Below, piece after piece: positions 20,507 through 38,233 of a stretch of 38,506 nucleotides of DNA. Below the pieces are notes generated by a model. That model saw only the letters and a list, made by a program, of their open reading frames with translations. It was not told the DNA's origin and did not search any database. This DNA is from Bacteroidaceae bacterium. GTDB taxonomy: Bacteria; Bacteroidota; Bacteroidia; Bacteroidales; Bacteroidaceae. The stretch is from NCBI GenBank assembly GCA_017547385.1, contig JAFYPU010000032.1, forward strand, positions 1 to 38,506, written 5' to 3'. Position numbers and translations under genes: made by a program. Position 1 is the first letter of the stretch. Each line of letters starts with the position of its first letter.

Positions 20507-20618
20507 AAACGAAATGTCGGAAAGTGCGTGTGCTTTCTTCGGATTTTCGGGTGAGATGGCAGGGTTTGCCTTACCTTATATATTATAATAATGTGTCGTC
20601 CCACTTCTGTCCAATGCT

Positions 20619-20650
20619 TTTGGAGGTTCTGTTCCTGTTTCGTACTTTTG
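20619..20650 (+). promoter_or_regulatory. Bacteroidetes-type promoter of the FKBP gene
   Basis: TTTG (20619-20622), 20 bp, then TACTTTTG (20643-20650) match the -33/-7 consensus closely. The promoter lies between two possible in-frame ATGs (20591 and 20669) and therefore selects the later one. Confidence 0.75.
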
Positions 20651-20668
20651 CAGAAACAAAATGATAAT

Positions 20669-21067
20669 ATGAAGAAACGCGATGTTTATAAATTGGAGAA
20701 TGAGAAATTTCTCCAAGAAGTGGCCGAGCGCGAGGGCGTAGGCACTTTGCCCAAGGGCATTCTGTATGAAGTGTTGCAAGCGGGTGAGGGCAAAACGCCC
20801 AACCCCAACAGCATTGTTTCTGTGTTCTACAAAGGCATGCTCATCTCGGGCAAGGTGTTCGATGACAACACGCGCCAAGCCTGTCCCGACGCATTTCGTT
20901 TGCGCGAGCTCATCACGGGCTGGCAGATTGCCCTTGTGCGGATGCATGTGGGCGACAAATGGCGCATCTATCTGCCGTCGGAAATGGGTTATGGCCCTCG
21001 CGGCACGCATGGCATTCCTGGTCATTCCGTTCTGGTGTTCGAGATAGAATTGGTGAGTGTGGGGTGA
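20669..21067 (+). CDS. FKBP-type peptidyl-prolyl cis-trans isomerase
   Basis: 132 residues from ATG 20669 (MKKRDVYKLENEKF). An upstream in-frame ATG at 20591 is rejected because a good promoter lies between them. The FKBP core is clear: IVSVFYKGMLISGKVFDDN (about 50-68), FRLRELITGWQIALVRMHVGDKWRIYLP and the tip YGPRGTHGIPGHSVLVFEIELVSV. It catalyses proline isomerisation to help protein folding. There is no signal peptide, so it should be cytoplasmic. The helical N-terminus resembles the FklB/FkpA subgroup. A strong terminator follows at 21138. Confidence 0.92.
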   Translation: MKKRDVYKLENEKFLQEVAEREGVGTLPKGILYEVLQAGEGKTPNPNSIVSVFYKGMLISGKVFDDNTRQACPDAFRLRELITGWQIALVRMHVGDKWRIYLPSEMGYGPRGTHGIPGHSVLVFEIELVSVG

Positions 21068-21212: not shown

Positions 21213-21227
21213 TTATTCCCACTCGAT
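21213..21227 (-). other. guaA 3'-end copy 3: distal attachment-site-like repeat
   Basis: Read on the minus strand this is ATCGAGTGGGAATAA, the codons for Ile-Glu-Trp-Glu-stop, identical in meaning to the true end of guaA at 23854-23868 and sharing a 12-bp exact core with it. Upstream guaA sequence is absent. It is the far boundary expected for integration at the guaA 3' end. Confidence 0.65.
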
Positions 21228-21303
21228 TAGAATTGTTAAATTGTAGCTAAATATTTTCATTTATTATCAATACTTTAACTCAGATTTCTATTCTGAAAAG
21301 AGT

Positions 21304-21326
21304 GAACTGGTGTTAAGAACTGGTGT
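21304..21326. repeat. Two direct 10-bp repeats next to the distal att-like site
   Basis: GAACTGGTGT occurs at 21304-21313 and 21317-21326, a 13-bp period, inside the module boundary. Such short direct repeats can be integrase arm-binding sites, but no integrase is present to confirm this. Confidence 0.4.
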
Positions 21327-21333
21327 AGAAAAG

Positions 21334-22407
21334 TTACTTGATAGGTTCTACAGTAAATCCTTGTGCAATAGCAAAATCTATGATAGTTCCAATATTATGC
21401 CGACCAATTTGAGTTGTAAAAGCAAAACTTACGCCATCAGCGCTATTCATTAAATCATCTTCAAACCAACGAGTTCCCTTACTTAAGTCTTTTGTATTCT
21501 CCTTCCATTTTTGTATTTCCGAATATTTTTCTATACCAAATGGAATCGCATTGGCAATTTCATCAAAAGTAAGGTTCGGATTGTTTTTAATAAATAACTG
21601 TACTATGGCTAATGCTAAACGGCCTTTACCATAATTACCATACCCATTAAGTTTATAGTGAGTACGGTCTAATTTTTTAGTTTTATTCTTGGTTATAGAA
21701 GATTGGTTAATCAATGGAACAGTTTGGTTTTGTTGTTGTATCGAAATTTGATTTTTACGATGAATATTTATTTCTATTTCAGAGATTATTTTTTCTATCT
21801 GCTCTGTGTTATAACCATCGTTTAGCAATTTTTGAGTTAATAGTTCAAATAGTATTTGCTTTCCCTTATCAGTTACAAGTTCATTGATAAACTCGTTAAT
21901 TTCTTTTTGCTTCTCTTGTATTGCTATTTGTTCGTTGCAGAAATGAGTAAGTTGGTCTATGTTGAAGTTTTCTTGTTTGAAAAGTTGGATGAAATTTCCA
22001 CCAATATTAGAGTTTTCTACAAAATCAATTTTCACAATACTTATAGGCTCTTTGCCAAACTCATAATAAAACAATTCAAGATGTTCTCCCATATATATAC
22101 CAAATTTCGCTGGTAGTAATTTCATATATGAGAAAAGTTGTACTATTTCCTCTTTATTTTGAACGTGGTTGGGCTTCTTCATTTCAATAACGAACATAGG
22201 AATGTCGTTCTTGAAAAAAACAAGATCAGGATACACATAGTTTACAGTACTCCCAACCCTTAATTGATACTGAGTTTCAACACGTTCGCAATACCAACCT
22301 AATAAGTAGCGAAAATGTGTATAGACAAGTTCTTGGTATTCTTTTTCGGTAGCTTGCCTATCCTTCTTGTCTAATATGTCTTTACAAACAGTATTCCAAA
22401 TATTCAT
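21334..22407 (-). CDS. HsdR-N-like PD-(D/E)XK nuclease domain protein with C-terminal helical domain
   Basis: 357 residues from ATG 22407. An upstream TTG (22428) is rejected because it lies inside a good -7 element. The first ~125 residues match the N-terminal nuclease domain of type I restriction R subunits. P60-D61 (VYPDLVFF), then E75-x-K77 (FVIEMKK), complete the catalytic pattern, and a following QLFSYMKLL helix fits. There is no helicase domain and no HsdM or HsdS, so this is an orphan nuclease. The middle (130-240) is helical and Gln/Asn rich. The C-terminal ~100 residues (YGKGRLALAIVQLFIKNNPNLTFDEI...RWFEDD) look like a DNA-binding winged-helix unit. It occupies the left guaA-bounded module alone and is clearly AT rich. 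A defence role is inferred. Confidence 0.7.
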   Translation of the reverse strand: MNIWNTVCKDILDKKDRQATEKEYQELVYTHFRYLLGWYCERVETQYQLRVGSTVNYVYPDLVFFKNDIPMFVIEMKKPNHVQNKEEIVQLFSYMKLLPAKFGIYMGEHLELFYYEFGKEPISIVKIDFVENSNIGGNFIQLFKQENFNIDQLTHFCNEQIAIQEKQKEINEFINELVTDKGKQILFELLTQKLLNDGYNTEQIEKIISEIEINIHRKNQISIQQQNQTVPLINQSSITKNKTKKLDRTHYKLNGYGNYGKGRLALAIVQLFIKNNPNLTFDEIANAIPFGIEKYSEIQKWKENTKDLSKGTRWFEDDLMNSADGVSFAFTTQIGRHNIGTIIDFAIAQGFTVEPIK

Positions 22408-22425
22408 TGTACTATGTTTAATCCA

Positions 22426-22456
22426 CAAAGTTATTTATTTATATTCGTTTAACCAA
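22426..22456 (-). promoter_or_regulatory. Promoter of the HsdR-N-like gene
   Basis: On the minus strand TAACTTTG (complement of 22426-22433) is preceded by a TTGG (complement of 22453-22456) about 20 bp upstream. The leader to ATG 22407 is about 12-15 nt. Confidence 0.6.
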
Positions 22457-22499
22457 GTTATATTTATAAATATAGTTATACTCTGAACTTTAAGTCTGT

Positions 22500-22590
22500 A
22501 AAATATGCTTAAGATAGGTTTTAATTACTCCCACTCAAAGTAGCATTGGTTTTCGGTGATTGGTCGTAGCACACGCGGTTTACGTTGGGC
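22500..22590 (-). pseudogene. guaA 3'-end copy 2: diverged remnant between the two modules
   Basis: The 66 bp at 22525-22590 align with the last codons of the intact guaA, and the similarity continues past the stop codon to about 22500 (ATATGCTTAAGATAGG here against ACATGCTTGAGATGGG at 23832-23847). Differences from guaA include several synonymous ones, so this is not a recent duplicate of the local gene but a 3' end brought from another guaA allele. One base is missing near the end, so the ancestral frame no longer reaches EWE-stop. No start codon or upstream guaA sequence is present. Confidence 0.75.
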
Positions 22591-22596
22591 TACTAA

Positions 22597-23643
22597 TTAT
22601 TTTTTCACATATCCCGTAGCTCGACCTTTGCCAACCTTTTCAATGAAACCAGCTACCAACAAATCTTTCAATGTGCGTTCGATGGTCGTTTCGCTGATGT
22701 CCGGACATAGAGTAGCTATATCTGATTTTTTTACTATTCCAAGTTTCTTTTCAAATACAACTTTTACTCTATCCGCCTTTGATAATTGGCGGTATTTCAA
22801 ATGCTCTATGCGATCTTGAAACTCATTATAACCTTTCAATATGACTCCCAAGTAATATCTTACAAACGAGGTGTAGTCATTTTTGTTGTTATGCCATTCG
22901 ATTGAACTGTTCTGCAAGGCTTCATAATATGTTTCCTTAGTCTTTTCTATCAACATTTCCATGCTGATATATTTCCCTACAATGTAGCCACAACGATAAA
23001 GTAACAGTAACGTAAGTAAACGGCTCATGCGCCCGTTACCATCATTAAACGGATGGATGCAAAGGAAGTCAAGGATAAACATCGGAATTAACAGCAATGG
23101 GTCATATTCGGCTTGCTCAATGGCTTTGTTAAATTCATTGCATAAGTTCTCCATTGCTTCTGCAGTCTGAAAGGCCGGGGTTGGTATAAATCTAACTCGT
23201 TGCTGCCCATCCCTACCTGCTTCCGCAATTACATTATCTGTGTTCTTGAACTTGCCTCCAGTATCGCCACTACTATAACTGTATAAGTCACGATGCAATT
23301 GCAGAATGTTGTTTGGGCGAATAGGGATATACTCGTAACTATTGTGGATTGTTGTCAAAACTTCCTTATAACCGGCTATCTCTTCTTCGGAGCGATTGCG
23401 AGGTTCAGCTTTCTCCATTACCAATGCCTCCAAACGTTCATCCGAGGTATATATACCCTCAATCTTGTTTGATGCCTTCGTACTTTGAATCTTAGCTATA
23501 TCTAACAATGCGGTTAATATATCAGATTCTGCTTCAATATACAATTCTTGCCTTCCCCTAAATTCGTGCAAAGAGGTCAACATCTTAACAATGTCGGGTG
23601 TCAAAAGAAGTTTGGGTGTCTCCTTATAATCAAATGTATGCAT
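22597..23643 (-). CDS. Fic family protein (AMPylase) with N-terminal inhibitory motif
   Basis: 348 residues. The Fic catalytic loop HPFNDGNGRMSR is at 197-208 and is complete, including the catalytic His197. The segment SNKIEG (58-63) fits the (S/T)xxxE(G/N) inhibitory helix, placing it in the self-inhibited class II. The C-terminus (about 295-348, KSDIATLCPDISETTIERTLKDL) is a winged helix, common in Bacteroidetes Fic proteins and possibly DNA binding. The enzyme would transfer AMP, or another nucleotide part, to a target protein hydroxyl. The target is unknown and no antitoxin-like gene adjoins. It lies alone between two guaA 3'-end copies, AT rich, on the same strand as guaA, suggesting island cargo. 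Confidence 0.9.
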   Translation of the reverse strand: MHTFDYKETPKLLLTPDIVKMLTSLHEFRGRQELYIEAESDILTALLDIAKIQSTKASNKIEGIYTSDERLEALVMEKAEPRNRSEEEIAGYKEVLTTIHNSYEYIPIRPNNILQLHRDLYSYSSGDTGGKFKNTDNVIAEAGRDGQQRVRFIPTPAFQTAEAMENLCNEFNKAIEQAEYDPLLLIPMFILDFLCIHPFNDGNGRMSRLLTLLLLYRCGYIVGKYISMEMLIEKTKETYYEALQNSSIEWHNNKNDYTSFVRYYLGVILKGYNEFQDRIEHLKYRQLSKADRVKVVFEKKLGIVKKSDIATLCPDISETTIERTLKDLLVAGFIEKVGKGRATGYVKK

Positions 23644-23797
23644 ATCTTGGCTGATTTATCATTGCAAAATTAATGCATTTCTTTCTGTTTTCTGCCTCAT
23701 AAATGTAAAATCTGCATCATTTTAAGAGCAAATGATGCAGATAGTGGCTAAATGATGCAGATTCCTTGACTTCCAATCAACAAGAAATCTTGTCAAT

Positions 23798-23825
23798 AAA
23801 AAAAGCCTCAACCGAAGTTGAGGCT
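23798..23825 (-). terminator. Rho-independent terminator after guaA
   Basis: AGCCTCAAC (23804-23812), loop CGAA, GTTGAGGCT (23817-23825). On the minus strand it is followed by TTTTTTT. It lies 28 bp past the guaA stop, inside the right module, so the island end supplies guaA's terminator. Confidence 0.9.
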
Positions 23826-23853
23826 ATAGAAACATGCTTGAGATGGGCTTATC

Positions 23854-23868
23854 TTATTCCCACTCAAT
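23854..23868 (-). other. guaA 3'-end copy 1: proximal attachment-site-like sequence
   Basis: This is the last four codons and stop of the intact guaA (Ile-Glu-Trp-Glu-stop). The 3' end of guaA is a known integration hot spot for genomic islands in many bacteria. Copies at 21213-21227 and 22525-22539 lie 2.6 and 1.3 kb downstream. Confidence 0.65.
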
Positions 23869-25161
23869 AGTGGCTGAGGGTTTCGGCGACATGTCGTAGC
23901 AAACACGGTTTACGTTGGGAACTTCCTTGAGGATGCGGTTGGTGATTTTGTCAAGGATGGCCCAATCGATATGTTCGATGCTGGCGGTCATGGCGTCGAT
24001 GGTGTTGACGGCGCGGATGATGACGGGCCAGTCGTAAGAGCGTGCATTGTCGCGCACACCCACACTCTTGAAGTCGGGCACGAGTGTGAAGTATTGCCAA
24101 ACCTTTTTGTCGAGTCCGGCTTTGGCAAACTCTTCGCGCAGAATGGCGTCGCTTTCGCGCACAGCCTCAAGACGGTCGCGTGTGATGGCTCCAAGGCAGC
24201 GCACACCCAGTCCGGGGCCGGGGAAGGGCTGACGGAAAACCATTTCGTGGGGCAGGCCGAGTTCGAGTCCGCAGGCACGCACTTCGTCCTTGAAGAGCTG
24301 CTTGATGGGTTCAACGAGTTCGAACTGCAAGTCCTCAGGCAGACCACCTACGTTGTGGTGGCTCTTCACGCACTTGGCTGTCTTTGTACCGCTCTCCACG
24401 ATGTCGGGATAGATGGTGCCTTGGCCGAGGAAATCGATGCCTTCGAGTTTGCGTGCTTCCTCTTCGAAAACGCGGATAAACTCTCCGCCGATGATCTTAC
24501 GCTTTTCTTCGGGGTCGGCAACGTTTTCGAGTTTTGTGAGGAAGCGTTCTGTGGCATCCACATACACGAGGTTGGCACAGAGCTGGTTGCGGAACACTTC
24601 TACAACGTTTTCGCTTTCGCCTTTGCGCATCAGTCCGTGGTTTACGTGCACGCAGACAAGATTGTCGCCAATGGCTTTGAGCAACAAAGCGGCTACAACG
24701 GAAGAGTCAACGCCTCCGGAGAGTGCCAAAAGCACTTTCTTGTTGCCTACTTGCTGACGGATGAGTTCCACCTGGTCGGCCACGAAATTCTTCATGTTCC
24801 AATTGGTTTCGGCTTGGCAAGTGTCGAATACGAAACTCTTCACGGCTTCCTTGATGGCAGCTTCGTCGTTTTCGAACTGCGGCAGGCAGGTTTCGCACTT
24901 GGCAGCAGCATGGCCGGCAGCCATGATGGGGAAACCGGCTTCGTAGATTTCGGGCAACACGTCGATGGTCACGCCGTCAATCACGTTGTTGGGGCCTCCG
25001 TTGATGATGATACCTTTTACGCCCGGCAGCGCCTTGAGTTCGGCTGCGGTGATGTCGTGCGGATAGATTTCGCTGTAAACTCCCAGGGCGCGGATGGCAC
25101 GTGCCACCACGGTGTTCTCGTGGCTTCCCAAGTCCAGGATAACAATCATGTTTTGTTTCAT
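23854..25161 (-). CDS. guaA: GMP synthase with degenerate glutamine amidotransferase domain
   Basis: 435 residues, against about 510-525 for usual GuaA. The ATP-pyrophosphatase domain is intact, with the P-loop SGGVDSS at 148-154, followed by IGGEFIRVFEEEA, GTIYPDIVES and the dimerisation domain ending PKPSATIEWE. These parts make GMP from XMP, ATP and ammonia. The N-terminal ~115 residues keep the start of a class I amidotransferase (VILDLGS, GIIINGGPNNV). The nucleophile elbow, normally GICYGMQ, reads AAGHAAAKCE (81-90), and about 85 residues including the His-x-Glu pair are missing. So it should not hydrolyse glutamine and would use free ammonia or a partner glutaminase. The frame is uninterrupted and well conserved, so this looks functional rather than decayed. 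A TAACTTTG -7 element lies at 25200-25207. The 3' end is an integration site. Confidence 0.9.
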   Translation of the reverse strand: MKQNMIVILDLGSHENTVVARAIRALGVYSEIYPHDITAAELKALPGVKGIIINGGPNNVIDGVTIDVLPEIYEAGFPIMAAGHAAAKCETCLPQFENDEAAIKEAVKSFVFDTCQAETNWNMKNFVADQVELIRQQVGNKKVLLALSGGVDSSVVAALLLKAIGDNLVCVHVNHGLMRKGESENVVEVFRNQLCANLVYVDATERFLTKLENVADPEEKRKIIGGEFIRVFEEEARKLEGIDFLGQGTIYPDIVESGTKTAKCVKSHHNVGGLPEDLQFELVEPIKQLFKDEVRACGLELGLPHEMVFRQPFPGPGLGVRCLGAITRDRLEAVRESDAILREEFAKAGLDKKVWQYFTLVPDFKSVGVRDNARSYDWPVIIRAVNTIDAMTASIEHIDWAILDKITNRILKEVPNVNRVCYDMSPKPSATIEWE

Positions 25162-25378: not shown

Positions 25379-25441
25379 TGGCAGGCCTTGCCACTTTTTT
25401 GGCAAGGCGTGCCACAAAAGTGGCAAGGCCTGCCACTTTTT
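25379..25441. repeat. 21-bp-period palindromic array, family I (complete copy)
   Basis: Three units start at 25379, 25400 and 25421. Each contains TGGCARGSCKTGCCAC followed by TTTTT or AAAAG. The outer arms 25377-25398 and 25416-25437 form a perfect 22-bp inverted repeat. Same family as 1-57. The stretch 25208-25500 contains nothing else that looks genic. Confidence 0.88.
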
Positions 25442-37525: not shown

Positions 37526-38233
37526 TTATATACAGAACTCTCTTTTTAATCTTTTCACGGTGCTTTCGGATACATCTGTGAGTTTCGCCACTTTTCTTAT
37601 CGGATAACCTGCTCGTAGAAGTTTCAGGGTCTCCTTATATTCTTCTCGTTTCTTATCTATCGGTTTGCGGTATCCTACCTTTCGCCCTAAACCTGATTTA
37701 CCTGTTTCAGCGAGGTTCTTATCAACATAGACCTTTCTGCCGCTCTGCAAACGATAGTATATATTCTCACGCTCAATCTGCGAGCAAACGCATAATACTG
37801 ACAGCATCACCGCAAGATACACATTTTCGCTGCCATCCTCCGAGAACAAAGACAATCCCTCCTTCTGAAAATAGGCGTTGATGCCGTTATCTTTCAATGT
37901 GCGGATAGTGTCCAATACCTCCCAAACGGCACGCCCACAACGAGAAAGTTCAGAGAATAAAACTACATCTACACTATTGCTGATAGCATACTCTATACAC
38001 TCTGATAGCACTGCACGCTCATCATTGCGTTTTGCTCCTGATATATGCTCTTCAAATGTCTTGCATATAGTTATCCCGTTCTTATCGGCGTAATCTGTCA
38101 AGTCTATCACTTGTCTTTCGGTTGATTGTCTCTCTCCTGTTGAAGATACACGAGCGTATATTGCTGCTCTGATATCTGTCGTCATATATGGGTTCATTGT
38201 TATGTTGGGTTCATTTAAGTGGGTTATGCTCAT
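37526..38233 (-). CDS. Serine recombinase (resolvase/invertase family)
   Basis: 235 residues from ATG 38233; Met at residues 13 and 17 (38197, 38185) are equally possible starts. The catalytic domain begins AAIYARVSSTGERQSTERQ, with nucleophile Ser30. SELSRCGRAVWEVLDTI is the conserved arginine segment, and a long helix with SQIERENIYYRLQSGRK leads to the DNA. The C-terminal helix-turn-helix is LLRAGYPIRKVAKLTDVSESTVKRLKREF (about 206-234). It is the short resolvase/DNA-invertase type and cuts DNA through a phosphoserine intermediate. It may belong to an element running past the right edge, or invert a local segment; no inversion sites were recognised here. A short inverted repeat (38235-38240 and 38253-38258) lies just upstream. 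Confidence 0.9.
   Translation of the reverse strand: MSITHLNEPNITMNPYMTTDIRAAIYARVSSTGERQSTERQVIDLTDYADKNGITICKTFEEHISGAKRNDERAVLSECIEYAISNSVDVVLFSELSRCGRAVWEVLDTIRTLKDNGINAYFQKEGLSLFSEDGSENVYLAVMLSVLCVCSQIERENIYYRLQSGRKVYVDKNLAETGKSGLGRKVGYRKPIDKKREEYKETLKLLRAGYPIRKVAKLTDVSESTVKRLKREFCI

Follow-up and report, generated by a model that had tools for sequence, protein, structure and literature searches.

A probable eroded member of a guaA-targeting integrative element family of gut Bacteroidales, with a Fic gene probably added separately

In the Bacteroidaceae contig analysed here (the window, meaning the whole stretch of 38,506 nucleotides), the end of guaA is followed by an insert that we consider likely to be an eroded member of a family of integrative elements targeting guaA in gut Bacteroidales, with a Fic gene added separately. 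The locus would comprise one such module, holding an HsdR-like gene, and a Fic gene that, together with a stub of guaA beside it, would have arrived by another route. Related genomes with and without an insertion enzyme of their own suggest that stripped-down versions of few genes have spread with borrowed help, and comparison across genomes, rather than the window's own genome, suggests that the modules are mobilised by an integrase encoded elsewhere. The features of the locus are as follows.

23854..25161, minus strand: guaA, the target gene, encoding a short GMP synthase of 435 aa (Pfam GMP_synt_C, 1e-37; NCBIfam glutamine-hydrolyzing GMP synthase, 8.5e-163)
23854..23868, minus strand: proximal core (attL), the present guaA end ATTGAGTGGGAATAA, one base off the ATC allele of locus L031 and of the distal copy
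23793..23850, minus strand: element-like left end with a terminator hairpin, a weak match (nhmmer, profile of five left ends, 20.9 bits, E 3.5e-4)
22597..23643, minus strand: Fic protein of 348 aa with HPFNDGNGRMSR and SNKIEG motifs (PF02661, 4.1e-17)
22525..22590, minus strand: displaced guaA 3'-end stub (the middle copy), 66 bp with a 1-nt deletion
22500..22524, minus strand: left-end stub following the middle copy; 17 of its 25 bases agree with those after guaA
21334..22407, minus strand: HSDR_N-domain nuclease-like protein of 357 aa (HSDR_N, 3.2e-6; PADLOC candidate defence family PDC-S57)
21228..21330, minus strand: right arm (blastn 78% over 127 bp to L070, 2e-20; 75% over 119 bp to L090, 2e-14)
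21306..21327, minus strand: arm repeat pair TACACCAGT-N4-AACACCAGT
21213..21227, minus strand: distal core (attR), the ancestral guaA end ATCGAGTGGGAATAA, identical to the last 15 bases of the L031 guaA

The first-pass annotation had described three copies of the guaA end framing two intervals, and the copies are real: ATYGAGTGGGARTAA, with at most one mismatch, occurs three times in the window, always on the minus strand (23854-23868, which is guaA itself, 22525-22539 and 21213-21227), and never in 100 shuffles. Its coordinates and stop-to-stop spacings (1329 and 1312 bp) were right, as was its account of one gene per interval on the guaA strand (Fic and the HSDR_N protein), of an AT-rich insert (GC 34.5% vs 54.9% in guaA) and of intervals in which no integrase is recognised. 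The similarity it saw past the stop codon of the middle copy extends over about 25 bp with 17 of 25 positions identical, a level reached by 1 in 20,000 random window positions (a draw that could include the middle copy itself). Two of its statements about the middle copy failed: the differences from guaA are not only synonymous, as they include the 1-nt deletion and altered codons, and origin from another allele is not borne out, since the copy lies about equally near the best sampled allele (81%) and the local guaA (79%).

Attachment at the 3' end of guaA, which had likewise been proposed, is supported by an empty site in a close relative, where such a site had been suggested as a check. We compared the best 80 of at least 573 guaA loci confirmed in a genome collection sampled at one genome per species, with fragmented assemblies (L-numbers denote loci and G-numbers genomes). 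Among these 80, the nearest relative is L031 (genome G008), with a GuaA 96% identical to that of the window, and its guaA joins the window's distal flank directly, at 91% identity over 822 bp in a match that includes a convergent gene (20591-21067) that by eye looks FKBP-like. Because the L031 guaA ends in ATCGAGTGGGAATAA, as the distal copy does, whereas the window guaA ends in ATTGAGTGGGAATAA, the best reading of the sequences is that the distal copy represents the original gene end and that the insert measures 2641 bp. The L031 record belongs to another species, and loss of the insert there may be an alternative to a never-filled site. The two genes are also not fixed in position, as neither the Fic nor the HsdR-like gene was found at the 80 other guaA loci (best of at least 573), and of 58 genomes in the genus, the one that holds the window is alone in having the HsdR-like gene at close range. 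A further copy of the HsdR-like module in the genus was sought and rejected, the two matching genomes of 58 being the window's own and one at 27%.

The target gene has features of its own. The amidotransferase domain match of the window GuaA spans only about positions 1-76 of 190, and the protein reads AAGHA where the full-length GuaA of L182 has GICYG (by eye), for which reasons the enzyme may rely on free ammonia. All 435 residues are matched in 79 of the best 80 loci (of at least 573), and longer frames of about 515 aa or more hold many other same-genus GuaA matches. Closely spaced palindromic motifs, GGCAAGGC/GCCTTGCC, lie 5' of guaA at window positions 25380-25440 (by eye), and L095 has a second guaA-end-like match about 130 bp upstream of its guaA.

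Elements with an integrase beside guaA are found in other genomes. L161 and L154 are complete, with a tyrosine integrase adjoining guaA, repeats at both ends and a serine resolvase; outward from guaA, their order is core, paired GACACCAG-type repeats, tyrosine integrase, NUMOD3-like peptide, Rep-like protein, serine resolvase, cargo, right arm and core (domains were assigned from the proteins of L069, L045 and L154, and the small NUMOD3-like peptide was seen by tblastn only in L154). In L152 the genes follow the same order, with a right end consisting of a repeat pair fused to the resolvase piece of the next module, so that this complete-type element is without a right core of its own. L069 and L045 hold only the first part of an element, with one stop in the L045 integrase frame, and L182 holds a diverged 13.4-kb element (integrase 57% identical) with both cores and both repeat pairs beside a full-length guaA. 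A different guaA-adjacent integrase (42%), without GACACCAG-type repeats, is present in L094. The window has no guaA-adjacent integrase, as opposed to these seven loci (L161, L154, L152, L069, L045, L094 and L182); its core is duplicated at both ends of the insert, as is that of L182.

A complete element would insert through its tyrosine integrase at the last 15 bases of guaA, rebuilding the gene end on one side and leaving the old end on the other. The paired GACACCAG-type repeats inside both of its ends resemble integrase arm sites and are putatively bound by the integrase; an arm-binding domain is present in CTnDOT-group integrases of Bacteroidetes, according to the available part of that source (PMC8138268). 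Modules without an integrase would move in the presence of a related one. Of the L069 and L045 proteins scanned, none was recognised as a relaxase. No Pfam or PHROGs family, and no convincing relative in the PDB, was found for the Rep-like protein that the complete elements encode; one plasmid ORF matches it at 28% over 61% of its length, and an AlphaFold model built from two sequences was unusable (pLDDT 35.5). A phage vehicle was considered and rejected on scans of viral contigs that reach close relatives only: the right-arm and repeat-pair patterns have no exact match there, and neither the integrase nor the Rep-like protein has a relative. In a phage collection, 47 records hold related integrases, all below 60% identity. 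Near the contig end, at 37526-38233, the window encodes a serine recombinase that shares 47% identity with the resolvase found in complete guaA elements.

The family is defined by its right end. In the window this is the right arm, a 118-bp stretch ending in the distal copy, with paired ACACCAGT repeats, that is present 3' of guaA in other genomes (876-994 bp past guaA in L070 and 1453-1571 bp past it in L090). A sequence-only model of it (R1) was built from the window, L070 and L090, and the window's score of 102.9 bits is by construction, the window being inside the model. The model was applied to an order-wide sample of 393 genomes, in which, beyond the model sequences, 1 of 392 carries the arm, namely G414, at guaA, and none was found in seven other genomes of that genome's family. 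In the family of G432, the arm was detected at E 1e-3 in 21 of 399 genomes (20 of 398 without G432, which is in the model). Right arms of at least 59 bits occur there in 17 genomes, 10 with guaA upstream, 5 cut by a contig end and 2 elsewhere, a count that includes G432 and excludes the low scorers G463, G558, G536 and G793; G463 itself carries a diverged complete element. Of the genomes most closely related to the window's, G001 carries a strong right arm, G003 and G018 have weak ones (11-18 bits) and G008 has none. Two strong right arms (G635 and G579) lie away from guaA. Right arms at L163:4690-4795 and L164:7329-7442 (guaA-strand orientation) have an altered core, with no guaA in the stretch fetched, and are possible secondary insertion sites. 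On the left side, the window's weak left-end match begins 4 nt past the guaA stop; left-end-like sequence follows both guaA and the middle copy, and the earlier proposal of related ends is supported.

Integrase-less modules hold one or two genes ahead of a right arm and stand in tandem in L154, L152, L149 and L153. Many of them, though not all, visibly descend from complete elements: apart from the full-length copies, 3' fragments of the resolvase gene remain at 18 places spread over 17 loci. Contig ends truncate several of these loci, and in L072 and L084 no right arm was recognised. The complete elements have both integrase and resolvase, related modules retain resolvase remnants, and at E 1e-3 none was found in the window insert, L151, L156 or L165, among others. 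In seven genomes (L032/G001, L070/G432, L072, L105/G434, L149/G572, L152/G706 and L154/G831), an arm repeat joins the resolvase gene at one and the same point, give or take a few bases, and a second deletion junction is common to L050 and L152. Cargo behind the shared junction is visible in five of the seven and differs among those five, which argues for a non-autonomous lineage. Such a lineage, marked by arm repeats and a resolvase scar, may have spread through gut Bacteroidales carrying one or two swappable genes and using integrase from complete elements, a MITE-like arrangement for tyrosine-integrase islands; we regard this reading as tentative and short of likely, because two units are fused at the L152 junction and cargo can be seen in just those five of the seven genomes.

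Among the 23 genomes that carry a full or partial arm, 4 have an integrase like that of L069 (E 1e-40), and its absence from the other 19 may, in fragmented genomes, reflect missing sequence. Those 19 carriers would also agree with ordinary accretion, in which independently decayed elements (CIMEs) share att sites and nothing moves in trans; the resolvase remnants show descent from complete elements, as that account would have it, and CIME accretion is described in the literature (PMC5704250, in the part available). The account is compatible with our main reading, and we rate it as rather unlikely, as genomes whose cargo differs share a deletion junction, a second junction is found at two places, and near-identical cargo occurs in hosts with guaA genes as different as those of G001 and G775.

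A cargo pair common to G001 and G775 is about 98% identical over the first 1.2 kb (93-100% per 100-bp block over the first 1.3 kb), with guaA genes 76% identical, and to judge by these values it probably moved recently between distant hosts. The near-identity fades about 360 bp before the core, blocks towards the core being 74-90% identical, so that movement of the cargo as an exact unit is not demonstrable. In G001, one contig has the cargo and right arm, and a second has guaA with the left junction; the cargo contig showed no gene from the window's flanks, and we infer that the two contigs form one module, wrong binning being possible. That the identity tract stops inside the module and that the arms are more diverged than the cargo would be explained if cargo spread by homologous recombination between arrays, with the arms as shared homology only, and the apparent fusion of element and module at an arm repeat in L152 points the same way, as does the middle guaA stub, which suggests a homologous or illegitimate event at guaA. 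Such spread is unlikely, in our judgement, given the 76% identity of the two guaA genes, the lack of any blastn similarity between G001 and G775 beyond the core, and the use of the same ends by complete elements that bear an integrase.

The cargo of guaA arrays is mixed, with DUF4405, DUF2335, PAD_porph, cupin, SHOCT and BspA-type LRR proteins, so that a defence-only cargo was ruled out and defence is not the general theme of the element family. Several arrays also contain a structured repeat of about 90 nt (L165:4912-5426, L157:5760-7973, L156:6081-6169 and L167:27-756, guaA-strand orientation), in which, across 10 copies, both partners have changed in 10 of the 31 predicted pairs; its best matches are at guaA arrays, with weaker partial ones elsewhere and none in the window's own genome. 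It has no Rfam match in the loci scanned (including L156 and L157, with L165 and L167 outside the scan), and nothing reached the gathering score in the 11 array loci searched against Rfam (L159, L162, L165, L090 and L105 being outside that scan).

Within the window, the two intervals differ in how they relate to this family. By its sequence, the HsdR-like interval fits the guaA modules: relatives of its gene, at 73% and 78%, immediately precede the right arm at L158 and L162, two loci that retain resolvase remnants, whereas the window module has neither remnant nor left arm. The Fic interval, which has an element-like left end, falls outside the pattern, because it has no right arm, because its homology to the guaA-less L179 ends at the Fic stop, and because it ends in a 66-bp guaA stub seen in none of the other arrays scanned. 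The Fic DNA is 79% identical to L179 across 23780-22596, a match whose far end and the Fic stop (22597) are no more than a base apart. The 9.5 kb fetched at L179 showed no guaA, and neither did the stretches fetched for two further Fic relatives, L180 and L181; no other stub of this kind was found after guaA in the 80 loci (best of at least 573), the arrays or L179-L182. The Fic protein has HPFxDGNGRxxR and SxxxEG motifs, which bear on Fic activity and autoinhibition.

The first-pass annotation had instead read the locus as tandem cis-mobilizable modules. The guaA-end site, the related ends and the empty site uphold part of this; that the two modules are equivalent is not supported, as only the HsdR-like interval has a right arm. 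Two equivalent tandem cassettes without integrase, each with its own att sites and served by an integrase elsewhere, would account for three core copies at similar spacing and for the sequence resembling a left end that follows guaA and the middle copy alike, and true tandem modules do occur in the four loci named above. We nevertheless find this quite improbable, since the Fic interval ends without a right arm, its junction is 66 bp of guaA rather than the 15-bp core, and the closest fetched Fic relatives lie in stretches without guaA.

Under our preferred reading of one eroded module with a separately added Fic gene, the window's HsdR-like gene, right arm and core would represent an integrase-less module that had already lost its left arm and resolvase remnant. 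Fic would have been inserted between guaA and this module by another recombination event, leaving a guaA end and left end as the middle copy: incoming DNA with a guaA end, a left end and Fic may have recombined into the guaA-HsdR array, displacing the earlier gene end. The array is probably stationary now, because a single arm can be recognised in it and the assembly (86.5% complete) yielded no close integrase. A search of this assembly for a guaA-type tyrosine integrase, which had been proposed as a check, gave no close homolog, the best match being partial at 35% (E 1.7e-7), and the genome has three PF00589 matches.

Small accessory genes of this kind, some encoding a nuclease or Fic protein, can readily pass for orphan insertions if there is no integrase nearby. 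With defined ends, an empty site and a matching integrase in relatives to go by, such genes could be recognised and their trans-mobilisation tested directly, and the deletion junction that recurs provides a natural example of a tyrosine-integrase element that is non-autonomous. Integron gene cassettes are also one- or two-gene units arrayed at one site; the guaA modules share with them the array of small units but differ in their ends, which consist of arm repeats and a guaA core.

Among the matches listed in a literature search, no title or abstract concerned guaA elements of Bacteroidales, which is weak evidence of novelty given thin coverage of subscription papers. Elements known at the guaA 3' end include ATE-1, an IncP island and GIsul2 (PMC5704250), and a cluster of epsilon15-type integrases uses the same site (PMC8138268); as far as the available text of these sources goes, they likewise place a tyrosine integrase at the guaA 3' end, but in other phyla. 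For GIsul2 and the CR2-sul2 unit, in Shigella and other proteobacteria, the part of the source available describes an integrase downstream of guaA that excises and integrates both the island and the smaller unit via att cores, with mobility established by experiment (PMC9376610), whereas the mobility of the guaA modules is suggested by sequence comparison. CIMEs, and their accretion with IMEs, are described in the available portion of PMC5704250 as lacking integration and transfer genes, keeping att sites and forming tandems at the 3' end of a target gene. In the window, the insert holds only the Fic and HsdR-like genes, and 15-bp cores are kept at both ends, with arm repeats on the right side only. 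Measured against that portion of the source, the guaA modules share with CIMEs the lack of integration and transfer genes, the kept att sites and the tandem position at the target 3' end; they differ in that no parental conjugative element has been identified for them, that many hold only one or two genes, and that a deletion junction is common to genomes with different cargo.
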